Source of the DNA: a virus
IMG/VR virus record: IMGVR_UViG_3300037672_001069
Span: 1-23,062 of that record
DNA length: 23,062 nt
Direction: 5' to 3' (one strand)
The position numbers were made by a program, and so were the translations under genes. The notes under the pieces were generated by a model. It made no database searches, was not told the DNA's origin, and was given only the letters and a program-made list of their open reading frames with translations. Of this stretch, positions 3,360 through 20,166 are shown piece after piece (position 1 is the first letter of the stretch; every line of letters begins with the position of its first letter).

Positions 3360-3769
3360 TGAGTAAGCAAGTTGATTTTGAAAAGTATCAGAAGTTTGTA
3401 GATGCTGTTACTTCAGACCAATCTACAGATTTTGTTGCCCTTGCAGATCGTCTAGTTGAACTGGATGAAAAGGGTGCAAACATTGAACGTCTTCTGACCG
3501 CTGGTGTTGGTATCAATGCTGAAGGCGGAGAGTTCCTTGAAATTATCAAGAAACTTATCTTCCAAGGCAAACCTTGGGATGAAGCAAACAAGGAACATCT
3601 GTTCATCGAACTTGGTGATCTGATGTGGTATGTTGCCCAAGCGTGTATGGCACTTGGTGTTTCTCTTGATGAAGTTGTTGCTCGCAACGTAAAGAAACTT
3701 GAGAAGCGTTATCCTGGTGGACAGTTTGATGTATACTATTCCGAGAATAGAGAAGTTGGTGATCTTTGA
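3359..3769 (+). CDS. mazG: MazG-like nucleotide pyrophosphohydrolase
   Basis: A 136-residue MazG-type all-alpha NTP pyrophosphohydrolase. The metal-binding signature is visible: an EGGEFLEIIKK helix (Glu55, Glu58, Glu61) and the second helix ELGDLMWYVA (Glu84, Asp87), followed by NVKKLEKRYPGG, the usual closing element of the fold. Family members hydrolyse (d)NTPs or ppGpp-like nucleotides. In cyanophages MazG has been proposed to alter host nutrient signalling or recycle nucleotides, and the sequence does not decide between these. It is a single domain, about half the length of bacterial two-domain MazG. It is coupled to gp41 by a one-base overlap and to the next gene by a TTGA overlap. Confidence 0.92.
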   Translation: MSKQVDFEKYQKFVDAVTSDQSTDFVALADRLVELDEKGANIERLLTAGVGINAEGGEFLEIIKKLIFQGKPWDEANKEHLFIELGDLMWYVAQACMALGVSLDEVVARNVKKLEKRYPGGQFDVYYSENREVGDL

Positions 3770-4791
3770 TAGAATCTGTAATTAAAAATGAACTCTACAT
3801 GGGGTACATCTTTGGTATTATGATTTTGGGTGGGTTCATTCGTGAATATCATGCACTTGAAGATGTGTACTCACTAATAAAAAGATATGTTAGTGATAAT
3901 CGTCTTATTATTATTCTAACTTCATTTTTAGGTGGCGTACTTCCTATTCCAGGACGTGTGGCATTATCTGCACCACTTCTAGATGCTATCGCACCAGCAG
4001 AAAAGAAAAAACGTTCTTATTTTGGTGTAATTGATTATTTGTCTACCCATCATTATTATTGGTGGTCACCACTAGAGAAGACAGTTGTCTTACCTATGGC
4101 GGTGATGGGAGTATCCTATACGACATTTCTTGGATATACAATCGTTCCTCTTATCATTACATTATCGTATACTTGGTGGTACATCTTCTCAAAGATTGAT
4201 CCTGAAAGTGTTAATATTTTAGATAATGTTCGTGAGTTCAATTGGCGTCGTGCTCTTACAGGATGGGCACCACTGATTGCTACTATTATTCTTCTATTAA
4301 ATACAGGTAAAGGTGGGGCAATCTTCTTCTTTCCTTGGTTCCTTGTGATGTCAATCTATTACTCTATTGTATTTAAAGATTGGAAGTGGGGTAAATGGTT
4401 GGATGGTAAGTTTGCTATCATTGCTACTATTGTTCTTGCATTTAGTGGTGTTGTTGGGCAAATAAAAGGTCCTGTGATGGAGTATCTCAAGGCAGCAACT
4501 CCTGAAATGTTAATTCCCGCTTCAATTGTTGCTATGATTGCTGCTTGGATTATGGGTTCATCTGGTAAGTATGCTGGTATGACTTCTGCTCTGGTAGCAA
4601 TCTTCGGTCCCCAATACTTGGTGTGGTTCCTCTGCACTGAATATTCTGGATATCTATTGTCACCTGCACATAAATGTTTGATGATTGGACAACAATATTT
4701 TGGAACTCCTATTAGGAAATATTATAAAGTAATTGGTGGTCTGTGTGGCATACTTATTGGATATGCAGCGATTATAACTTTTGCAATCTAA
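3766..4791 (+). CDS. multi-pass membrane protein, DUF401-like (GntP/citrate-transporter-related)
   Basis: A highly hydrophobic protein with roughly nine or ten predicted membrane segments by eye, for example YIFGIMILGGFI, LIIILTSFLGGVLP, FLGYTIVPLIITLSYTWW, ALTGWAPLIATIILLL and LCGILIGYAAIITFAI. Two features resemble DUF401 proteins, putative integral membrane relatives of GntP-type transporters: LPIPGRVALSAPLLDAIAP near residues 60-78, and a later segment IDYLSTHHYYWWSPLEK recalling the family's NYW...HxWE...PLYPG element. Substrate is unknown. The start is uncertain: TTG at 3766 forms a TTGA overlap with the mazG stop and gives 341 aa, while the in-frame ATG at 3799 would give 330 aa and loses only polar residues. 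Its stop overlaps the next ATG by one base. Confidence 0.82.
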   Translation: MIESVIKNELYMGYIFGIMILGGFIREYHALEDVYSLIKRYVSDNRLIIILTSFLGGVLPIPGRVALSAPLLDAIAPAEKKKRSYFGVIDYLSTHHYYWWSPLEKTVVLPMAVMGVSYTTFLGYTIVPLIITLSYTWWYIFSKIDPESVNILDNVREFNWRRALTGWAPLIATIILLLNTGKGGAIFFFPWFLVMSIYYSIVFKDWKWGKWLDGKFAIIATIVLAFSGVVGQIKGPVMEYLKAATPEMLIPASIVAMIAAWIMGSSGKYAGMTSALVAIFGPQYLVWFLCTEYSGYLLSPAHKCLMIGQQYFGTPIRKYYKVIGGLCGILIGYAAIITFAI

Positions 4792-5764: not shown

Positions 5765-5976
5765 ATTCATACGTTAAAGAATTAATCAACGACTACGATG
5801 GTGATAATTATGAACACTTCACCAGATATATCTACATGACTTTTCAACGTGAGATTGATTCTAGTGGGGGTAAAAATAAGGATAAATATATAAAGATACG
5901 AAATGACATTTTAAAGTACATAGTTACCAATCGTGGCAATGTTACTTTAGAACTACGCAAAAACCGATATCAATGA
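5761..5976 (+). CDS. small hypothetical protein, 71 aa
   Basis: A 71-residue, predominantly helical, basic-and-aromatic protein (for example YEHFTRYIYMTFQREI and DKYIKIRNDILKYIV). It overlaps both neighbours by ATGA junctions, so it is almost certainly translated with the nuclease gene before it and the nucleotidyltransferase gene after it. No motif is recognised. A partner or small regulator of one of these enzymes is plausible from position alone. The late-promoter-like octamer GATAAATA lies within its coding sequence at 5881-5888. Confidence 0.7.
   Translation: MNSYVKELINDYDGDNYEHFTRYIYMTFQREIDSSGGKNKDKYIKIRNDILKYIVTNRGNVTLELRKNRYQ
5881..5888 (+). promoter_or_regulatory. possible internal late promoter (GATAAATA)
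   Basis: GATAAATA matches the late core in seven of eight bases and sits 85 bases before the ATG at 5973, inside the 71-aa ORF. It could give the capsid-targeted gene its own late transcript. Such matches also arise by chance in AT-rich coding sequence, so confidence is low. Confidence 0.25.
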
Positions 5977-7250
5977 AATCCTTTCTTCAATTTCTAAGCG
6001 AATCTGCAACACAGCAAGCACAACGTCTTGGTCTGGAGGGTGATGGTCATGGTTCCTGGTATGATAGAAGTACTAAGGAATTTGTAGCGAAAACTGAAAA
6101 GGGTAAACTAAAATTTTATAATAAAAGACAGAAGATTGGTAAGGGTGATCCTGATCAAACTGAATTAGAAAAGAATGTCTCTGACCCCAACTTTACTGAT
6201 CCTGGTTTAAAACAAGAACCGCAAGTTGTACCAGAACAAGAAGCAGCACCTGCTCCAGCACAACCAACAGTAGAACTCAATCCAGATCTTACTGCAGGTC
6301 CACAAAAAGCAGCAAAATCAAAAGGAACTCTTACTATTGCTTTTGGTAGATTCAATCCTCCACATATTGGGCATCAGCAATTGATGGATACTGCTAAGAA
6401 ATCGGCAGATCAAGAACATGGAGACTATATTATAGTTCCATCTCGTTCAAATGATCCTAAGAAGAATCCTCTCGACGCTGATACCAAAGTTGCATTTATG
6501 AGAGGGATGTTCCCCAAGCACGCTGGTAGAATTCAAAATGATAACAATACTAGAACTATTTTTGATGTTTTAAAGAAAGCACATGGTGATGGATATGAGA
6601 ATGTCAGAATTATTGGTGGTGCTGACAGAGTAGGTGAATTTAGTAAACTGGCAAATAATTATAATGGTACTCTCTATCAGTTTAACAATATTGAGGTCGT
6701 TTCTGCTGGTGATAGAGATCCAGATGCTGAAGGAATTGAAGGTCTTTCAGCATCAAGATTGAGACTTGCCGCTTCTGAAAATGATTACAAAACTTTTAAA
6801 ATGGCAATGCCTGATGGTATGGCACCTAAGGAAGTGAAAGATCTGTATAATACTCTCCGTGTATCAATGGGTATTAATGAAGAGTGGGGTATTTGGGAAA
6901 TGGCACCTAAGTTTGATCAGCAAACTCTTCGTGAAAATTATGTAAGTAAAACAATATATAAAATTGGTGAATGGGTTGAAAATATGAATACTGGATTGGT
7001 TGGAAAAATTGTTCGTAGAGGTGCAAATCATCTTATCTGTGTCACAGAAGATGATATTATGTTCAAGTCTTGGATTAGAGATGTGAATGAATCAATTGTC
7101 AATGGCACTGAGATAGGTGGAGTTCCTGCAGATCAACGTTTGGTTGGAACTGACTCACACTTTAACTATGTTTCATCGATGGTTCCAGGCGCTATGTCTA
7201 GCGGAATAGCGTTTATAAATAAATATAAGATAGGAAAACGTAAATCGTAA
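5973..7250 (+). CDS. nucleotidyltransferase-domain protein with T4-type capsid-targeting N-terminus
   Basis: A 425-residue multidomain protein. Residues 1-11, MKSFLQFLSES, resemble the capsid-targeting peptide of T4 internal head proteins (MKTYQEFIAE, cleaved after Glu by gp21), with cleavage predicted after Glu10. Residues 20-75 form a Gly/Lys-rich conserved-looking module (GDGHGSWYDRSTKEFVAK). A Pro/Ala/Glu linker (80-115) follows. Residues 118-300 form a cytidylyltransferase-like Rossmann domain: AFGRFNPPHIGHQQLM, with the HIGH motif at 131-134, and GLSASRLR at about 258-264 in place of the ISSTxxR motif. A C-terminal beta-rich region (KIGEWVENMNTGLVGKIV) looks like an SH3/KOW-type fold. 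The family adenylylates or cytidylylates small molecules such as NMN; the substrate here is unknown. Head packaging is inference. Confidence 0.85.
   Translation: MKSFLQFLSESATQQAQRLGLEGDGHGSWYDRSTKEFVAKTEKGKLKFYNKRQKIGKGDPDQTELEKNVSDPNFTDPGLKQEPQVVPEQEAAPAPAQPTVELNPDLTAGPQKAAKSKGTLTIAFGRFNPPHIGHQQLMDTAKKSADQEHGDYIIVPSRSNDPKKNPLDADTKVAFMRGMFPKHAGRIQNDNNTRTIFDVLKKAHGDGYENVRIIGGADRVGEFSKLANNYNGTLYQFNNIEVVSAGDRDPDAEGIEGLSASRLRLAASENDYKTFKMAMPDGMAPKEVKDLYNTLRVSMGINEEWGIWEMAPKFDQQTLRENYVSKTIYKIGEWVENMNTGLVGKIVRRGANHLICVTEDDIMFKSWIRDVNESIVNGTEIGGVPADQRLVGTDSHFNYVSSMVPGAMSSGIAFINKYKIGKRKS
7214..7221 (+). promoter_or_regulatory. late promoter TATAAATA inside the 3' end of the upstream gene
   Basis: A perfect T4-type late core, TATAAATA, 37 bases before the ATG at 7259. 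It lies inside the last codons of the nucleotidyltransferase gene, where it encodes part of the FINKYKIG tail. The downstream leader shares a 12-base sequence with the leader of the gene at 16697. Confidence 0.75.
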
Positions 7251-11002: not shown

Positions 11003-13296
11003 GCAACGGGACAAAGGTAATTAAGAGAAATGGAAATACTGAACCTCTTGATCTGAATAAACTTCACGTAATGGTGGAGGAAGCATGTAAAGACTTGGCA
11101 GGTGTTTCTGCATCTCAAGTTGAAATGCAATCTGGCATTCAATTTTATGATGGCATCACTACAGGAGAGATACAGGAGATCCTGATTCGCTCTGCAAGCG
11201 ACTTGATTGATCTGGACCATCCCAACTATCAATTCGTTGCTGCCCGCTTGCTCCTGTTCGCTCTCAGGAAGCAACTTAACGGTCGTAGACACGAGACACC
11301 TTCTGTTTATGAACATACTAAACTCTGTGTAGAGAAAGGAGTTTATGATGCGGAAATTCTTGATCTCTACACCAAAGAAGAGTTTGATAAACTCGAATCA
11401 TTTATCGACCATCAACGCGATTATCTGTTTACCTATGCTGGTTTACGTCAGGTTGTGGATAAATACCTAGTGCAGGATCGTAGCACGGGTGCTCAATATG
11501 AGACACCTCAGTTCATGTATCTTTTGATTGCAGCAACAATTTTTTCTAAGTATCCAAAAGAAACCCGTTTAGATTACGTAAAGAAATACTATGAAGCAAT
11601 CAGCAGACACAAGATCAACATCCCAACACCGATCATGGCAGGCGTCAGGACACCCTTGCGTCAATTTGCATCTTGTGTTCTCGTTGATGTTGATGACACC
11701 CTCGATAGTATCTTTAGCAGCGATATGGCTATTGGTAAATACGTCGCACAAAGGGCTGGTATCGGTATTAACGCAGGCAGAATTCGTGGGATCAATGCTA
11801 AAATCAGAGGCGGAGAGGTACAACACACAGGCGTGGTCCCCTTCCTTAAAAAGTTTGAATCAACTGTACGATGCTGCACTCAAAACGGCATCAGAGGTGG
11901 TTCTGCTACAGTTCACTTTCCTATCTGGCACCAAGAAATAGAGGACATTATTGTTCTCAAAAATAACAAAGGCACAGAAGACAACCGGGTACGCAAACTT
12001 GACTACTCAATCCAGATTTCAAAACTTTTCTACGAACGTTTCATTGCGAATGGAGAGATTAGCTTATTCTCACCGCATGACGTACCAGGTCTCTATGATG
12101 CTTTTGGTACTGATTCATTTGACGATCTCTATGTACGCTATGAATCAGATGAGTTTACTCCAAGAAAGACTATCGGGGCACAAGATCTTTTCTTAGATCT
12201 CTTAAAGGAAAGAGCAGAGACTGGTCGTCTTTATATTATGAACATTGACCATTGCAATTCTCACTCATCCTTTATGGATAAGATTGAGATGAGTAACTTG
12301 TGCCAGGAGATTACTCTTCCTACTAAACCTTTACAACATATTGATGATGAAAACGGAGAAATTGCTCTCTGCATACTTAGTGCTGTTAATATCGGAAAAA
12401 TTAGGGATATGGAAGATCTTCAAATTCTTTGCGATCTTGCTGTTCGCAGTCTCGATGAACTTATTGATTTTCAAAACTACCCCATCAGAGCAGCAGAAAT
12501 CGCCACAAAAGCACGCCGCTCACTTGGAATTGGTTATATTGGTTTAGCGCACTTCCTGGCGAAGCAGGGGTTCAATTATAGCGAAGCAGGTGCCTGGGAT
12601 GCAGTTCATAAACTGTCTGAATCCTTTCAATATTATCTGATTTCTGCTACAGTAGAACTTGCTAAAGAAAAAGGTGCTTGTGAGTATAGTGGTCGAACAA
12701 AGTATGGAAATGGAATTTTGCCCATCGATACATATAAGAAGGATGTGGATGAAATTGTTCCAAATGAGCTTCAGTATGATTGGGAGAGTCTTAGGGCACA
12801 AGTTAATCAATACGGAGTTAGGAACTCAACATTGTCCGCACAGATGCCTTCAGAGAGCAGTTCCGTTGTGTCAAATGCAACTAATGGAATTGAACCACCT
12901 AGAGGATACTTGTCCATTAAGAAGTCCAAAAAAGGACCTCTTAAGCAAATTGTTCCACAATATGCAACATTGAAAAATAACTATACTTTACTATGGGATA
13001 TGAAGTCTAATCGTGGTTATATTAACATTGTTGCTGTAATGCAGAAGTTCTTTGACCAAGCAATTAGTGGCAATTGGAGTTATAATCCAGAGAACTATCC
13101 TGACAATGAAGTTCCAGTTTCAGTAATGGCACAAGATCTTTTAACTACATACAAATACGGTTGGAAGACTTCATATTATCAGAACACATACGACTTCAAG
13201 ACTGACGAGGTAGAAGATACTAAGGAAAGTCTTGATAATCTAATCACTCAACTAGAAAACGCCGAGGAGGAAGACTGTGAGTCTTGTAAAATTTAA
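10999..13296 (+). CDS. nrdA: ribonucleoside-diphosphate reductase, large (alpha) subunit NrdA
   Basis: A 765-residue class Ia reductase alpha chain, which reduces ribonucleotides to deoxyribonucleotides with NrdB. An N-terminal ATP-cone, the allosteric activity site, begins TKVIKRNGNTEPLDLNKLH. The active-site cysteines are present: Cys226 (FASCVLVD), Cys435 in NLCQE, the thiyl-radical site with its Asn and Glu, and Cys458 (ALCILSAVNIGKI). The mobile C-terminal redox pair is CESC at residues 760-763. I chose ATG 10999, which overlaps the gp61 stop (ATGA) and follows GGA; the in-frame TTG at 10987 adds four residues without support. The last 20 bases overlap nrdB. All residues needed for activity are visible, so it is probably functional. 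Confidence 0.97.
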   Translation: MSNGTKVIKRNGNTEPLDLNKLHVMVEEACKDLAGVSASQVEMQSGIQFYDGITTGEIQEILIRSASDLIDLDHPNYQFVAARLLLFALRKQLNGRRHETPSVYEHTKLCVEKGVYDAEILDLYTKEEFDKLESFIDHQRDYLFTYAGLRQVVDKYLVQDRSTGAQYETPQFMYLLIAATIFSKYPKETRLDYVKKYYEAISRHKINIPTPIMAGVRTPLRQFASCVLVDVDDTLDSIFSSDMAIGKYVAQRAGIGINAGRIRGINAKIRGGEVQHTGVVPFLKKFESTVRCCTQNGIRGGSATVHFPIWHQEIEDIIVLKNNKGTEDNRVRKLDYSIQISKLFYERFIANGEISLFSPHDVPGLYDAFGTDSFDDLYVRYESDEFTPRKTIGAQDLFLDLLKERAETGRLYIMNIDHCNSHSSFMDKIEMSNLCQEITLPTKPLQHIDDENGEIALCILSAVNIGKIRDMEDLQILCDLAVRSLDELIDFQNYPIRAAEIATKARRSLGIGYIGLAHFLAKQGFNYSEAGAWDAVHKLSESFQYYLISATVELAKEKGACEYSGRTKYGNGILPIDTYKKDVDEIVPNELQYDWESLRAQVNQYGVRNSTLSAQMPSESSSVVSNATNGIEPPRGYLSIKKSKKGPLKQIVPQYATLKNNYTLLWDMKSNRGYINIVAVMQKFFDQAISGNWSYNPENYPDNEVPVSVMAQDLLTTYKYGWKTSYYQNTYDFKTDEVEDTKESLDNLITQLENAEEEDCESCKI

Positions 13297-14461
13297 GACA
13301 AACAATGAGGATAGACCAATGGTCGAATCCATGACTGTTTTTAATTCAGAAGTGGTTGATACCAAAAAACAACCAATGTTCTTTGGTAAACCATTGGGTA
13401 TTCAGAGATACGATTCTTATAAGTATCCAATTTTTGACAAACTCACAACGCAGCAGTTAGGGTATTTCTGGAGACCTGAAGAAGTTTCTCTTCAGAAAGA
13501 TCGTGCTGATTATCAGACATTACGTCCAGAGCAGAAGCATATCTTCACTTCTAACCTGAAGTATCAGATTATGCTCGATTCTGTTCAGGGTCGTGGTCCT
13601 GGTATGGCATTTATTCCTTACTGCTCCTTACCTGAATTAGAAGCGTGTATGGAGGTCTGGGGATTCATGGAGATGATTCACAGTCGTTCATATACACATA
13701 TCATCAAAAACATTTATGCAGACCCTTCAGATGTGTTTGATCATATTCTGACTGACGATCGTATTGTCGAACGTGCAATGAGTGTGACAGAGGCATATAA
13801 TGACTTTATCAATGCAGCACATCATTATGATAGTACTAATGATTGGCAACACGCAATAGAAGGAGTTCCTTATGCACAAAGTTCAAGATATGAACTCAAA
13901 CGCAAATTGTTTAAAGCAGTTGCAAACGTTAATATTCTTGAAGGTATTCGCTTTTACGTATCATTTGCATGTAGTTTTGCTTTTGGCGAACTCAAACTTA
14001 TGGAGGGAAGTGCAAAAATCATCTCACTGATTGCTAGAGATGAGAACCAACATCTTGCCATTACTCAGAATATTCTGAAGAAGTGGAAGGAAGGTGATGA
14101 TCCTGAGATGGCACAAATCTTCAAAGAAGAAGATCGTTGGTTATATTCTATGTTTGAAAAAACTGTGAATGAAGAAAAAATTTGGGCAGAGTATTTGTTT
14201 AAAGATGGATCAATGATTGGTCTCAATGATAAATTGTTGCAGCAGTATGTTGAGTGGATCGCCAACCGTAGAATGAAAGCAATTGGATTAAAACCTATCT
14301 ATGACATACCCGCAAAGAATAACCCACTCCCCTGGACGGAACATTGGATTTCGTCGAAGGGTCTTCAAGTTGCTCCTCAAGAAACTGAGGTTGAGTCTTA
14401 CATCGTCGGAGGAATTAAACAAGATGTCAAAAAAGATACCTTCTCAGGATTCCAACTTTGA
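13277..14461 (+). CDS. nrdB: ribonucleoside-diphosphate reductase, small (beta) subunit NrdB
   Basis: A 394-residue class Ia R2 protein that houses the diiron-tyrosyl radical used by NrdA. Expected ligands are all present: Asp101 (MLDSVQG), Glu132 and His135 (EMIHSRSYTHI), radical Tyr139, Glu222 (ILEGIRFYVSF), Glu256 and His259 (ARDENQH). The C-terminal tail, KKDTFSGFQL, resembles the peptide that docks on NrdA. It starts at GTG 13277 with a strong Shine-Dalgarno (GAGGAGG, 13264-13270) six bases upstream, inside the end of nrdA, so the two subunits are translationally coupled. Identity to the Escherichia coli motifs is high by eye. Confidence 0.97.
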   Translation: MSLVKFKTNNEDRPMVESMTVFNSEVVDTKKQPMFFGKPLGIQRYDSYKYPIFDKLTTQQLGYFWRPEEVSLQKDRADYQTLRPEQKHIFTSNLKYQIMLDSVQGRGPGMAFIPYCSLPELEACMEVWGFMEMIHSRSYTHIIKNIYADPSDVFDHILTDDRIVERAMSVTEAYNDFINAAHHYDSTNDWQHAIEGVPYAQSSRYELKRKLFKAVANVNILEGIRFYVSFACSFAFGELKLMEGSAKIISLIARDENQHLAITQNILKKWKEGDDPEMAQIFKEEDRWLYSMFEKTVNEEKIWAEYLFKDGSMIGLNDKLLQQYVEWIANRRMKAIGLKPIYDIPAKNNPLPWTEHWISSKGLQVAPQETEVESYIVGGIKQDVKKDTFSGFQL

Positions 14462-14639
14462 AGAAGTATGGAAGGAGATGGATGAGATAGAACCTCTTAC
14501 TCCACCTCCTCCTTCAAAAAAAGAATTATCTAATGAAGCACTAAGAGCATATAGAGAAGCAGCATTGTCTGATGCCTATATGTTTGGTGAATATAATGGA
14601 TATGATGCATATCAAGACTATGGTGATATTCCAAATTGA
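14424..14639 (+). CDS. small acidic protein overlapping nrdB, 71 aa
   Basis: The ATG at 14424 gives a 71-residue acidic protein (NFEEVWKEMDEIEPLTPPPP, later DAYMFGEYNGYDAYQDYGDIPN) whose first 38 bases overlap nrdB in another frame. A GGAGGA lies 10 bases upstream at 14408-14413. Alternative start codons further upstream in this frame would overlap nrdB by over 100 bases. It is rich in Glu, Asp, Tyr and Pro, looks flexible and has no recognised motif. It could be a small partner of ribonucleotide reductase by position, but I have no direct support. It ends at the terminator hairpin, whose first two bases are part of its stop codon. Confidence 0.62.
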   Translation: MSKKIPSQDSNFEEVWKEMDEIEPLTPPPPSKKELSNEALRAYREAALSDAYMFGEYNGYDAYQDYGDIPN

Positions 14640-14665
14640 GAGGACTTAGGTCCTCTCTTTTTTTT
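14638..14665 (+). terminator. strong intrinsic terminator closing the gp61-nrdAB operon
   Basis: A perfect 8-bp stem, GAGAGGAC / GTCCTCTC, with a 4-base loop (TTAG), is followed by eight T residues (14658-14665). It starts within the stop codon of the 71-aa ORF. It should stop transcription of the primase-reductase operon. Confidence 0.9.
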
Positions 14666-14672
14666 ATAAATA
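14665..14672 (+). promoter_or_regulatory. late promoter TATAAATA abutting the terminator
   Basis: A perfect TATAAATA whose first T is the last T of the terminator's T run. It is 19 bases before the ATG at 14692, so the predicted leader is about 14 nt and has no Shine-Dalgarno sequence. It should restart transcription for the late genes at 14692-17650. Confidence 0.82.
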
Positions 14673-14691
14673 TCTAAAAACAGTATCTGTG

Positions 14692-15054
14692 ATGAAGACG
14701 TATAAGAAATTTGTTACTGAATCAAATCAGGCAGTAGAAAATCTTCATGAAGGTTGGAGGTCTGGTCTACGTGCTCTTGGAAGAAGTGTTGGTAGACAAA
14801 TGGTAAAGAGACCTGTTGATATTGTGACAGGTCTTTATGGGGCACAGAGAGCGTCTCAAGCGGCAACAAATCCTGCAGGGTATGATGAACCTGGTGTATA
14901 TGCTGGATTGGGTCAAATGATTCCATCGGTAAATCCTGGAGCTGCTGCAGTCAAATATGGTGCTATGGCATTTGATGCTGTAAGAAGAATTAAATCTTAT
15001 CAGAAATACTTGAAGATGAAAAAGAAAGAAGAAAAAGAAGAAGCAGCGAAATAA
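14692..15054 (+). CDS. putative internal head protein with capsid-targeting N-terminus, 120 aa
   Basis: The start MKTYKKFVTES strongly resembles the T4 internal-protein targeting peptide MKTYQEFIAE, with gp21-like cleavage predicted after Glu10 (VTE). The mature part would be about 110 residues, basic (RSGLRALGRSVGRQMVKRP), with a Gly/Ala/Pro-rich middle (GAQRASQAATNPAGYDEPG) and a Lys-rich C-terminus (KYLKMKKKEEKEEAAK). It could bind packaged DNA or the prohead core and might enter the host with DNA. ATG 14692 is chosen over GTG 14689 because it preserves the targeting peptide exactly. A perfect late promoter lies just upstream. Function beyond packaging is unknown. Confidence 0.8.
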   Translation: MKTYKKFVTESNQAVENLHEGWRSGLRALGRSVGRQMVKRPVDIVTGLYGAQRASQAATNPAGYDEPGVYAGLGQMIPSVNPGAAAVKYGAMAFDAVRRIKSYQKYLKMKKKEEKEEAAK

Positions 15055-15086: not shown

Positions 15087-16667
15087 ATGGCATCACTAAA
15101 CGAAGGAAGAAAAAAATTAAATTTTGGCACTAAGAGTGGTGTTGGTAATGTTGATATAGAGACTTCCCGTTCAAAGGTGCAAGATCCTGCCAATACTACT
15201 GTAAACCCAAAGAAAGAATCACCTAAAAATAGTGGTCAGGGATTTAATCCGAGCAAAGAATCCGCAGCACGGTATGCTGGTAAACCTGATGTTGTACAAC
15301 AGACAAAAGTTGCCGATGATATTAGATCTCGTGCAGGAGTAGATCCTACACCTAAAAAAGCAGCTTCTAATATCATTGGTGGTGGTAAAGCTCCTGATGC
15401 TGATGATATTAAAGTTGGTGGAGAAACAGCAAAACCTGGAAGAGGTCAAAGATATCGTCAAGCAAGACCGTCAGATGTAAAGTCTACTGGTATTGGGACT
15501 AGAACAAAACCAGCACCAATACCTAAAACAACCGCAGTTAAACAGTCTGAGGTATCTAAGAGAGCAGAGAGATTTAGGCAATCTTTTGGTACGCCTACTG
15601 GTGCAAATCCTCTTACAGGGGCACCAACGTACAGATCACTTCCTGCAACGACTAATCTACCACAGGGTGTTGGTGGAAGAGCACCAAGTTCGAGACAGTA
15701 TAGTAAAGTAAAGGTTAGTGATTTAACTCCTACTGCAAAACCTACAAAAGCAGTATCAGCACCAACTAAAACAAAGGTAAAACTTCCAAAACTAACTGTA
15801 ACGAAATTACCAGCACAACCATCTACAACAATAAGAAGAAGATCTGGAGATGCTGGTCCAAGTAGTAAACTTGATGCTGGAAAGTTTACACCACCAAAAA
15901 GTGCAACCAGATCCGTTACAACATCAAAAGAACCTACTTTAGATCTTGGTCGTAAAACTCAAGTTAAAACTAGAGCAGGATCAGTATCATATAAACCCGA
16001 AAAGTACAAGGTATCTTCTAAATATGGTCCTTTGAGTGTAGCTGGTGATGCTTTATATGGTGGAGTTGTTGGTTATGATGCATATCAGAAAGCAAAAGCA
16101 AGAGGACAAACTGATGCCTATGCATATAAGCAGGCAGCGGCGCAAGGCGGTACTGTAGCTACTGCTGGTGCTGCAGGTGGTGCTTTTGGTAGAAAGATTG
16201 GTTCTAAGGCTCCAGGATGGTCAAAGATGATTGCTGCTCCAGTTGGTGACATTCTCGGTAGTTCTATTGGCGGATATGTTGCACAAACTGCTAGTCCAGG
16301 AATAGTTGGAGCAAGTAAGTCTGATAAGAAATGGATGCAATGGGCAAATCGTTCTGTCCAACAAGGAACTCCCACACAATCTGCAACTTCAAAAAGCGGA
16401 AACCGAGCGATTGTACGTGATGCTAAAGGTAAAGAACGGGTTGGATACCGTGCTTATAAGGGCGGCAAAGCAGTGTACAAGCACGGTAACGATCCCTCTT
16501 CACTTCAATACACTTCTAGTAATCCTCTTGAAAGAATTGGTAGAACAGTTGGTAGTAGTGGTGGTCTTGGTCCAGTCTCTGATTTGATTAAGGGATACTA
16601 CTCTAGAAAAGATACTGCAACTAGAACAGCAAACGTTGCTGCTCAAAGATCTAGAGCAAGTAAGTGA
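15087..16667 (+). CDS. large basic low-complexity late protein with Gly/Ala-rich segment, 526 aa
   Basis: A 526-residue protein very rich in Lys, Thr, Pro, Ser and Arg over residues 1-310 (for example GRGQRYRQARPSDVKSTG), so probably disordered and nucleic-acid- or surface-binding. Residues about 312-408 form a Gly/Ala-rich block (GGTVATAGAAGGAFGRKIGS, then DILGSSIGGYVAQ) reminiscent of glycine-zipper membrane segments. The C-terminus has a compact-looking motif (GYRAYKGGKAVYKHGND). No catalytic site is recognised. Its place after a capsid-targeted gene suggests a virion interior protein, possibly ejected with the DNA; this is inference. It begins 32 bases after the previous stop with no clear promoter of its own, so it probably shares the 14665 promoter. 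Confidence 0.78.
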   Translation: MASLNEGRKKLNFGTKSGVGNVDIETSRSKVQDPANTTVNPKKESPKNSGQGFNPSKESAARYAGKPDVVQQTKVADDIRSRAGVDPTPKKAASNIIGGGKAPDADDIKVGGETAKPGRGQRYRQARPSDVKSTGIGTRTKPAPIPKTTAVKQSEVSKRAERFRQSFGTPTGANPLTGAPTYRSLPATTNLPQGVGGRAPSSRQYSKVKVSDLTPTAKPTKAVSAPTKTKVKLPKLTVTKLPAQPSTTIRRRSGDAGPSSKLDAGKFTPPKSATRSVTTSKEPTLDLGRKTQVKTRAGSVSYKPEKYKVSSKYGPLSVAGDALYGGVVGYDAYQKAKARGQTDAYAYKQAAAQGGTVATAGAAGGAFGRKIGSKAPGWSKMIAAPVGDILGSSIGGYVAQTASPGIVGASKSDKKWMQWANRSVQQGTPTQSATSKSGNRAIVRDAKGKERVGYRAYKGGKAVYKHGNDPSSLQYTSSNPLERIGRTVGSSGGLGPVSDLIKGYYSRKDTATRTANVAAQRSRASK

Positions 16668-16696: not shown

Positions 16697-17650
16697 ATGT
16701 ATAATCTTTCGGAAGACAAGCACATCTTTTTGCATGTAACATACTCTATGCTTGAAGAGGGATATGATATTGATGAAATTCTTGGAATGTGGGTGCTGGC
16801 GGATGAAGAAGAGTTGAGTGAACTTATGGAGTCACTTACTTTAACTGAAGAAATTGATCTTAGTAATCAAGATCTAGAAGGTATTACTAGATATTATTTT
16901 GGCGAAAGATTTAAACCCAATTTAAATTTTAGTTGGTTAAAAAGATTATTTGGTAGGGGACAGAAGATTAAACCACCTAAGGTAACACCTAAGGTAAAAC
17001 CAACAAAACCCGTTACTACTTCTGGAGGTAAACCTGTTACTCAAGGTAGTGGATCATCTAAACCTACAACGAAACCAAAAGTTACGAAGAATACCACTGG
17101 AACATTAGCAGATAAAGTTAAGAAAAATGCACCTAAGATTGTAGCTGGTGCCGCAGTTATTGGTGGCGGTTTACTGGGTGGTAGTGATCTTTTACCAGGT
17201 GAACCTGGTACTGGTAATAGTAATCCTCCACTAAAAGATGATAAAGGAGATGATGGAGATAAGAATACTGATAATGCAGCAGCAGATGCAAAAGCAAAAG
17301 CAGATGCAAAAGCAAAAGCAGATGCAAAAGCGGAAGCAGATGCAAAAGCATCATCAGAAAAGAATTCATCTTCAAATAACAAATCTTATGGTTGGTGGAG
17401 ATTGCAAAATCAACCAAAAGATCTTTATAAGAACAGTCCTGGATATCAGGTAAGTCTTAAAGCATATAAGAATATTAGAGCAAATCCTGTACCTTCAATC
17501 TATGATCACTATGAAGTGATTGCAGACTATCTGATCAAAGAAGGACATGCTTCTGATATTAATGAAGCGGATTATATAATGAAGCAACTAGACGAAGATT
17601 TCGTTCAAACTATTATCGAATCTTCTTGCGGATCACATAAGAAGAAGTAA
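16697..17650 (+). CDS. late protein with membrane-like segment and Ala/Lys/Asp repeats, 317 aa
   Basis: Residues 1-75 form an acidic helical domain (SMLEEGYDIDEILGMWVLAD). Residues 86-145 are basic and rich in Pro, Thr and Lys (KIKPPKVTPKVKPTKP). Residues 147-163, KIVAGAAVIGGGLLGG, could cross or insert into a membrane. Residues 196-218 consist of Ala-Asp-Ala-Lys units coded by an 18-base tandem repeat. The C-terminal domain (225-317) is helical with aromatics (YGWWRLQNQPKDLYK) and ends in KKK. The order recalls proteins that anchor or insert into membranes, but no family is recognised. It shares build and neighbourhood with the 526-aa gene and likely acts with it in the virion. The stop abuts the convergent gene's stop with no gap. 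Confidence 0.78.
   Translation: MYNLSEDKHIFLHVTYSMLEEGYDIDEILGMWVLADEEELSELMESLTLTEEIDLSNQDLEGITRYYFGERFKPNLNFSWLKRLFGRGQKIKPPKVTPKVKPTKPVTTSGGKPVTQGSGSSKPTTKPKVTKNTTGTLADKVKKNAPKIVAGAAVIGGGLLGGSDLLPGEPGTGNSNPPLKDDKGDDGDKNTDNAAADAKAKADAKAKADAKAEADAKASSEKNSSSNNKSYGWWRLQNQPKDLYKNSPGYQVSLKAYKNIRANPVPSIYDHYEVIADYLIKEGHASDINEADYIMKQLDEDFVQTIIESSCGSHKKK
17282..17350 (+). repeat. 18-bp tandem repeat, about 3.8 copies, in a coding region
   Basis: GCAGATGCAAAAGCAAAA occurs twice exactly, then once with CGGAA in place of CAAAA, then as a partial unit of 15 bases. Each unit is six codons (Ala-Asp-Ala-Lys-Ala-Lys/Glu), so copy changes keep the reading frame. It may vary between relatives by slippage. 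Confidence 0.9.
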
Positions 17651-18014: not shown

Positions 18015-20166
18015 GTAAATCAACCAAGAATGGAGTAATCCAATCTTCATTAGAATTTGTTACTGTAGTGATGGTAATATTTTTTTCATTTAACTTAGCA
18101 ACAAACGCATCATAAGATGCTCTAACTGTTTGAAGTGTCATACTACCAGAAGTATCAATGAACAAAGCGATAGAAGATCCCTCTGGAAGATCATCTATCT
18201 TACAAATCTTGTACCAATCAGTTGCATCTGCAGCAGTTCCACCATCCCTATTTACAATTACTGGTCCGAAGGTTAAACCATTTGCTTGTGCTCCTGGTAC
18301 TGTAGATGTATCTAGGATAGTGATATCTGGAGATCTTATAATAATTGGATCAGTATAACTATGACCTCTTATCGCAACATAGAATACTTCAACACCTTCG
18401 GATACAAAGTCTGCAGTAATTCCAATTGTAGTACTACTAGAACTACCATATCCACTATAAGTTCCAGTTTGGATTTCATGATTAAGAGCTGAAAAACTAG
18501 AATTAAAATCATCATCATTTATTGCACCACTTACAATTTCTATAGTTGCATAAGCAGGACCTTCTGGCATATTTGTACTAATACCAGTTACTGGATGCCT
18601 AGGATTTCCAAAGGTAAGATTTAGTGTATCTCCTTCATTCACTGTAGTTTTATCTACAGTCAGATCAAATAATAAATCTACATCAGTTACAGTTAGTGTT
18701 TTAGATGTAAGAGCAGTTCCGGAACTACCAGAAGATCTTTCGCGAACTACGAATCTAAAGACATCATTTTCATTTGATCGCCAATCGTAAAATGCTCCAG
18801 ATCTAAATGTGGTTGCAGAACCTACTGTATCAACATCTTTAGCGGATGAACTCTGTAATTGATCATTACCGAAATTCCAGAGACCCAAATCTCTATAGTT
18901 TACATTACTTCCAGTTCCAGGTTCTTCTTCAAAATCTACTCGAAGTTGTGTTCCCACTGCAACATTTTGAGTGTTTATAGTAACATCGAATAATTGACCT
19001 TCTTCAAAAGTATCGGTTGCTATTCCAGTTTGAACTTCTACGAAATCTATATCATATATTGGGAATACATCATTGACAGTAATAGTTGGTGTTGTTGTTA
19101 CTGCCGCACCAGAAGTAGAACCAGTTCTAATTGTGACATTAAAGTTTTCAGTTCCTTCGGATCCAGGAGGTTCTGCTACTAACGCTCTGGAGAATGTAGC
19201 AATACCGCCAGTTGTGGTACCATTACCAACAATATTGAATGATCCTGTTAAACTATTATCTGTAAAGTCTGCTGCTACAGTTGTTCCAGAAGTGCTAAAG
19301 TACAGCGTAGTTCCAGCTGCTATACCTGTTGCATTAACAGTAAATTCAACAGACGATCCTTCATTTACAACTGTTGTTGATACTCCAACAGAGTACAATG
19401 CTACAACATCATTAATTGTAATATCATCAGTTCTTGTGACAACTCCAACAGTTGTTGAGTCTGTTAAAATAACAGTACGGAATGTCTCTGGACCTTCTGT
19501 TACACCATCCAGTATAATTGTTCTGGTTACTGTTGCGATACCGCCATCAGAAGTTCCATCACCAACAATGGCGAATGACCCAGAGTTTGGTGATATTAAG
19601 TCTGCGCCAACAGCGGTTGTTCCAGATATACCTGATTCTGTGTTGTAATATAATGTAGTTCCAATATTTACGCCACTGGTTGTGACTACGAAATTGATTG
19701 TACCACCTTCATTAACATTAGTTGCAGATGGTGTGATATCATATATTGGGACACTAGAACTTTGTAGTAATGCGCCACCAAGACCTTTAATTGTTAATGC
19801 CCTTCCGCGAGCAATAGGTATATTTTGATTTAATGTATATGTTGATCCATCTTTAGTGACACCTTGATCTTCACCAACAAATGTAAGTAGTACTGATGTA
19901 GATCCAAAACTTACAGTTACTCTGTCGTTTGTTAATGCAGGTAAGTAAAATAAGGTTTCATTTGCTTCATCACTAGAAATATCAACAGTTTCAAAGTTGT
20001 CAAAAGGTATTACTCTAACGTCATCTGTCGTACTAATCCCAACTGCCTTTTCAGATAGAATTGCATCAATATAAAATTCAGGTATAGTTGTATTTGCAAA
20101 CTTGGATTTAAATTTCCTTAACCAAGTTTTAAAACTAGTTCTTTGTGCTAATGTGGGCTTTGCCAT
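18010..20166 (-). CDS. Calx-beta-repeat virion protein with C-terminal VWA-like metal site, 718 aa
   Basis: The N-terminal domain (1-135) begins MAKPTLAQRTSFKTWLRKFK and is unrecognised. Four Calx-beta-like repeats follow at about 140-253, 256-367, 370-496 and 499-619. They open with YDITPSATNVNEGG or variants (VNEG, EEG) and close with TINDV/TVTDV. Repeats 1 and 2 share a segment, GSFAIVGDGT...GGIAT, showing a recent duplication. The C-terminus (652-718) has an SSIALFIDTSGSMT strand with DxSxS (Asp671, Ser673, Ser675), the metal-ion site of VWA domains, but only about 45 residues follow, far short of a full domain. It looks like an extended fibre or appendage protein binding Ca/Mg. Ribosome site AGGTGG (20173-20178) lies six bases before the ATG. 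Confidence 0.85.
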   Translation of the reverse strand: MAKPTLAQRTSFKTWLRKFKSKFANTTIPEFYIDAILSEKAVGISTTDDVRVIPFDNFETVDISSDEANETLFYLPALTNDRVTVSFGSTSVLLTFVGEDQGVTKDGSTYTLNQNIPIARGRALTIKGLGGALLQSSSVPIYDITPSATNVNEGGTINFVVTTSGVNIGTTLYYNTESGISGTTAVGADLISPNSGSFAIVGDGTSDGGIATVTRTIILDGVTEGPETFRTVILTDSTTVGVVTRTDDITINDVVALYSVGVSTTVVNEGSSVEFTVNATGIAAGTTLYFSTSGTTVAADFTDNSLTGSFNIVGNGTTTGGIATFSRALVAEPPGSEGTENFNVTIRTGSTSGAAVTTTPTITVNDVFPIYDIDFVEVQTGIATDTFEEGQLFDVTINTQNVAVGTQLRVDFEEEPGTGSNVNYRDLGLWNFGNDQLQSSSAKDVDTVGSATTFRSGAFYDWRSNENDVFRFVVRERSSGSSGTALTSKTLTVTDVDLLFDLTVDKTTVNEGDTLNLTFGNPRHPVTGISTNMPEGPAYATIEIVSGAINDDDFNSSFSALNHEIQTGTYSGYGSSSSTTIGITADFVSEGVEVFYVAIRGHSYTDPIIIRSPDITILDTSTVPGAQANGLTFGPVIVNRDGGTAADATDWYKICKIDDLPEGSSIALFIDTSGSMTLQTVRASYDAFVAKLNEKNITITTVTNSNEDWITPFLVDLP

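Follow-up and report, generated by a model that had tools for sequence, protein, structure and literature searches.

Among the internal head proteins of phage T4, IPI and IPIII have been reported to be active in the host after injection. Mutagenesis of IPIII assigned targeting mainly to residues 4 and 7, and processing to residues 8 and 10 (PMC9026906). The cleavage motif of the prohead protease gp21 is reported as L/I-x-E, and T4 propeptides are reported to be 10–19 residues long. In cyanophages, mass spectrometry has placed the T4-GC190 protein in the virions of S-SM1 (PMC3037559), S-SCSM1 (PMC9602691), S-SZBM1 (PMC9146016) and S-CREM2 (PMC10665884). The authors of cyanophage proteomes were unable to tell packaged from co-purified enzymes (PMC10665884, PMC9602691), and for the SAM hydrolase and the kinase of S-CREM2 they were hesitant to call them packaged (PMC10665884). 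We found no description of T4-type internal head proteins in cyanophages, nor of a late cargo site behind nrdB, in the open-access literature; since only this literature was covered, the absence of an earlier description is not proven.

The internal-protein class is known from T4, and the protein analysed here is, on our reading, a further member of it. We consider it quite probable that the product of the ORF starting at position 14692 is a small, basic internal head protein made late in infection, which carries a T4-type capsid-targeting leader, undergoes processing by gp21 and reaches the host together with the DNA. The window, that is, the whole stretch of DNA analysed, is a 23,062-base IMG/VR record, a fragment of its genome. 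Its gene order (uvsX, gp41, mazG, a DUF401 protein, a cytidyltransferase-like gene at 5973, others, gp61, nrdA, nrdB) matches that of T4-like cyanophages belonging to the Kyanoviridae and their relatives. The features referred to below are these:

5973–7250, plus strand: companion leader gene, encoding a cytidyltransferase-like protein (T4-GC190) whose orthologues are virion proteins in four related phages
5973–6002, plus strand: companion leader MKSFLQFLSE, whose FLSE is identical to that at the maturation site of S-SRM01 gp23
13277–14461, plus strand: nrdB, the conserved upstream neighbour and a survey anchor
14424–14639, plus strand: conserved small ORF in the nrdB-to-terminator interval, second anchor of the leader-independent survey
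14638–14664, plus strand: intrinsic terminator at the end of the nrdA-nrdB operon (8-bp stem, loop of 4, then a T run)
14665–14672, plus strand: late promoter TATAAATA, its first base 27 nt ahead of the ATG of the 14692 ORF
14692–15054, plus strand: 120-aa ORF, a leader and a small basic Gly/Ala-rich body (from its translation and its relatives)
14692–14721, plus strand: capsid-targeting-type leader MKTYKKFVTE, residues 1–10, with the T4 targeting positions occupied by Y4 and F7 and the processing position by E10
14743–14751, plus strand: second candidate gp21 site, L-H-E, residues 18–20 before G21, a canonical [LI]xE
15087–16667, plus strand: 526-aa protein starting MASLNEG, in the late operon of the 14692 ORF, with a C-terminal part common to S-SRM01 gp270
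16697–17650, plus strand: 317-aa protein starting MYNLSE, third in this late operon, with ATAAATA at 16667

The N-terminus of the translated 14692 ORF is MKTYKKFVTES. The sequence-only reading had counted seven of the first ten positions as matching the T4 internal-protein leader; compared with MKTYQEFIAE, six are identical (M, K, T, Y, F, E), and seven is reached only when V is counted for I. The perfect late promoter and the separate late operon that it had described are both present: the terminator closes the nrd operon (folding z-score of −4.0 for the stem, 14638–14657), and the TATAAATA immediately behind it opens a new unit of three ORFs, encoding the 120-aa, 526-aa and 317-aa proteins. 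The cyanophage late motif is NATAAATA (PMC2984593). Note that TATAAATA by itself is not rare, with 3 copies in the window against 2.0 expected, all of them 24–45 nt upstream of an ORF. The spacing from promoter to start is 26–27 nt in 7 of 7 family members checked (six relatives and the window), and the promoter together with this conserved spacing indicates that the ORF would be expressed late. An in-frame GTG lies at 14689, one codon before the ATG.

The companion gene at 5973 (MKSFLQFLSES) is also real, starting 8.7 kb upstream of the 14692 ORF, and the proposed scan of N-termini returned 2 strict matches among the 230 ATG starts of the window. Beyond the window, MK[TS][FY]xxF[ILVM]xE had 11 strict matches among 13,075 ATG starts, in nine cyanophage sequences, while 60,480 permuted motifs gave a mean of 0.008 matches in the same sequences. 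Moreover, a pair of leader genes of the 14692 and 5973 types, about 9–10 kb apart, recurs in three relatives (G001, G004 and G005). This enrichment and this recurrence uphold the proposal that the two genes point to a set and not to a chance match. At the DNA level, a search of two contigs together with eight complete phage genomes gave 14 matches to the pattern MK[TS][FY]xxFxxE and none to the reversed pattern. The T4 matches were IPII, IPIII and 61.1. Gene 61.1 of T4 (18966–19130, L050; MKTFKEFIKEDMV) has the strict motif although it lies apart from ipII and ipIII; its product resembles the 14692 protein in carrying a strict leader, MKTFKEFIKE, at its start codon, beside gene 61, and differs in having only 54 aa and an unrelated body. 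To our knowledge, gp61.1 has no known virion role.

In profile searches, the leader alone (residues 1–30) matched phrog_3966, phrog_15565 and phrog_2667 (‘internal head protein’). These three families were also matched by T4 IPII and IPIII, at comparable E-values and again through the leader residues. The whole 120-aa protein matched the leader-bearing family phrog_3966 with E=0.0057, which had raised the suspicion of full-length kinship. This possibility is ruled out, because in separate searches the leader matches and the body without it (residues 11–120) has no match to any of the three families; residues 1–16 carry the whole-protein match. No match was obtained when the 120-aa protein and the consensus leader were compared by tblastn with 50,697 phage records, so none of these isolates has a detectable copy. 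The ORF had no match in Pfam, and the family profile found only chance matches (E≥0.5) among PDB sequences. The AlphaFold model of the protein is poor (pLDDT 65), and with it a viral fold search gave no match at E≤0.001.

The family combines a constant leader with a variable body. In ten aligned members M1, K2, Y4, F7, E10 and P78 are invariant, and every pair of members has 8–12 of 12 leader residues in common, whereas the identity of the bodies falls to 22–32% in distant pairs. The leader codons differ synonymously among members while the residues are constant. Compared with G005, the window is 99.5% identical in nrdB and 97.6% in the cytidyltransferase, and the 14692 ORF is 34% identical (its body 32%). 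Ten of the eleven members are 115–144 aa long and one has 267 aa. The net charge of the 14692 protein after residue 20 is +10; across all members that of the mature part ranges from +7 to +12, and most of them have a Lys-rich tail. A constant leader with a divergent body is what would be expected if the cargo behind a fixed address were exchanged or evolving fast.

Like T4 IPII and IPIII, the 14692 protein has an N-terminal MK[TS]YxxF[IV]xE leader, with aromatic residues at the IPIII targeting positions (Y4 and F7), on a small basic body that varies under the constant leader, and gp21 is present in relatives of the window phage. Unlike them, it has V8 for I8, an extra [LI]xE at about residue 20 and a body without sequence relation to theirs, and its gene sits behind nrdB in a three-gene operon.

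We found gp21 in 7 of 7 complete cyanophage isolate genomes tested. It is also present in G004, a 231-kb contig with the 14692 family, where its reading frames are broken, as are those of other genes of this contig. It is not within the 23,062-base window, and it was not seen for the window phage because the window is a 23-kb fragment. As for its target, V8-T9-E10 of the leader has V8 outside L/I-x-E, and since the family mostly has FVxE, cleavage at E10 is uncertain. A canonical [LI]xE occurs at about residue 20 in 9 of 11 members, against a background of 4.9%. As T4 propeptides have 10–19 residues, removal of about 20 would agree with the T4 case. Read from the alignment, the gp23 maturation site is FLSE/A, resembling the leaders, in S-SRM01, P-SSM2, S-SKS1 and G004, and ILTE or MLNE in other cyanophages; the T4-GC190 leaders mostly have FLSE, FLNE, FLTE or FITE.

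The T4-GC190 proteins of the four phages with virion data start with MKKFSAFLNEA (S-SM1), MKSFLQFLKEA (S-SCSM1), MRFRQFIIEA (S-SZBM1) and MKNFSSFLTEA (S-CREM2). In the window, T4-GC190 resembles the 14692 protein in having a leader of the same form in the same phage, and its orthologues are virion-detected; it differs in its large enzyme-like (cytidyltransferase/NMNAT) cargo with an extra DGHG domain, and in being conserved where the 14692 protein is hypervariable. Over the complete genome of S-CREM2, MKx[FYL]xxF[ILVMF]x[ED] is found at exactly four start codons, each belonging to an annotated gene (a SAM hydrolase, a kinase, a cytidylyltransferase and a small protein), and all 4 products are among the 52, out of 219, that are listed for the virion. 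The corresponding hypergeometric p=0.003 is only indicative, since this motif, slightly looser than the strict one, was picked after viewing the T4-GC190 leaders and some S-CREM2 N-termini. The leaders of gp6 (SAM hydrolase, MKDFDSFLEE), gp14 (APH/ChoK kinase, MKRFDAFLTE) and the small gp13 (MKDLHSFLTE) resemble that of the 14692 protein, and these three were detected in virions by mass spectrometry; they differ in belonging to a minus-strand cluster at 3.8–13 kb of S-CREM2, and gp6 and gp14 in having enzyme cargos. The claim that the window encodes two capsid-targeted proteins, part of a set, is thus supported by gp21 in relatives and by the virion-detected T4-GC190 and S-CREM2 leader proteins.

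The expectation that every leader-bearing protein would be virion-detected failed: two small ones, S-SZBM1_191 and S-SCSM1 ORF30, were not detected in the published virion proteomes. Their family also includes S-SRM01 gp208, S-SKS1 113009 and G010 10708; these proteins are about 102–106 aa long and have a GDFNGNLY-like stretch behind a leader similar to MKSFKQFISES, and the genes lie near the terminase genes in S-SRM01, S-SZBM1 and S-SCSM1.

The T4-GC190 leader (window 5973–6150) is followed by about 40 aa (SDGHGxWYD...) that recur in two virion proteins of S-CREM2, the kinase (E 4e-18, two copies) and Cas9 (E 2e-11). The kinase gene, gp14 (L251, 10579–12846), and that of the Cas9-like gp12 (also L251, 7704–10313) are both on the minus strand, and the Cas9 has LRFASFMAEA near its N-terminus. 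The DGHG stretch, judged by these matches, appears to be an N-terminal module that can be transferred among unrelated enzymes of the virion.

Seven relatives of the 14692 ORF had been found with the leader as search seed, which alone is no proof that the leader is conserved. Therefore, loci were re-collected through nrdB and the small ORF behind it, without use of the leader, giving 97 non-redundant loci. TATAAATA was present within 260 nt of the anchor in 59 of the 97. The first ORF after it had the strict leader in 14 of these 59 and a looser form in at least 2 more, with different bodies. Most of the remaining post-nrdB genes had a second leader, M[KR][SAP]LSQSEYGE[LI]RxLYxS[IV]Y or MSRxTGxxAxxLxEAYxx[IV]Y. 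Since the first ORFs differ and two types of leader occur, the site behind nrdB is, by its gene content, a hypervariable late cargo site. An isolate, S-SRM01, has gp270 there, starting MKSFSQFLEES and homologous in its C-terminal part to the 526-aa protein of the window. The second leader (SQSEYGELRxLYESIY or LxEAYxx[IV]Y) often has an LxE site; it is seen, for example, at L145, L147, L159, L177 and L191, in S-SKS1 SWZG_00082 and in S-SRM01 gp269. In the same context, the N-terminus of the S-SCSM1 virion protein 89 is MDSKTFNSLSEAYAAVYSN.

Taken as a mechanism, the first ~10 residues of the 14692 protein would serve for capsid targeting as in T4, with Y4 and F7 mediating their binding to the prohead core. 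The protease gp21 would then remove the leader at E10 and/or at LHE20/G21, and the mature protein of ~100 aa would stay in the head with the DNA and enter the cyanobacterium at infection. Since the body varies and the leader and promoter are constant, as in the T4 internal proteins, its most likely job would be early action in the host, e.g. counter-defence or takeover. Packaging seems well supported by analogy; the cleavage position, injection and function we infer.

The protein could instead be a component of the prohead core, a scaffold replacing the missing gp67 and gp68 that, instead of being injected, is degraded or expelled when the head matures. Cyanophages are reported to lack both gp67 and gp68, some small leader-bearing proteins are absent from virion proteomes, and the 14692 protein is small, charged and predicted to be helical. 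However, its body is hypervariable or replaced outright, whereas the core gene gp22 is conserved, and the [LI]xE sites of the family are confined to the N-terminus, in contrast to the several sites spread over gp22; we regard a scaffold as quite improbable. A variant of the favoured explanation, differing in the last step, is that the protein is packaged but does its work in the head, where as a basic protein it would bind DNA or help assembly, without a host role. The positive mature parts and Lys-rich tails would suit this, but T4 IPI and IPIII, whose leaders are of the same type, are active in the host, and fast divergence fits an arms race with the host better than DNA condensation, so this variant seems rather unlikely.

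It is also conceivable that the likeness of the leader is due to chance, or that the conserved DNA is a promoter/start cassette serving as a recombination anchor, in front of an ordinary late gene. Promoter, start and leader are indeed adjacent and conserved together. Against this, the leader codons change synonymously under constant residues, the motif is enriched, and the same residues recur at other loci in genes that are unrelated, as well as in proteins detected in virions, which makes this explanation very improbable indeed.

More generally, T4-type cyanophages may possess a general head-loading system, a proposal to which we give an even chance. The address would be M-K-x-F-x-x-F-[IL]-x-E, in some cases with the DGHG module, and unrelated cargos (NMNAT-like enzymes, SAM hydrolase, kinases, even Cas9) would be delivered at infection. 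The hypervariable late site behind nrdB would exchange cargos, and there the second leader LxEAYxx[IV]Y would serve the same purpose. If the leader marks packaged proteins, the packaged-versus-co-purified question becomes directly testable, and candidate injected proteins can be listed from sequence alone for some of the ocean's most abundant viruses. The post-nrdB site would also be a place to seek cyanophage counter-defence proteins.

Finally, two other proteins of the window deserve mention. The DUF401 protein (341 aa, 3766–4791; phrog_14035, E 5e-183) has its gene between mazG and the operon of the cytidyltransferase. The 317-aa ORF has, close to its C-terminus (window 17501–17620), a 40-residue domain of the LxxEGxA type, YxVIxxYLIxEGHAxxIxEAxYIMxQLDExxxxxIIE; a single cyanophage genome can encode up to four proteins with this domain, and gp269 and gp271 of S-SRM01 are among those that have it.
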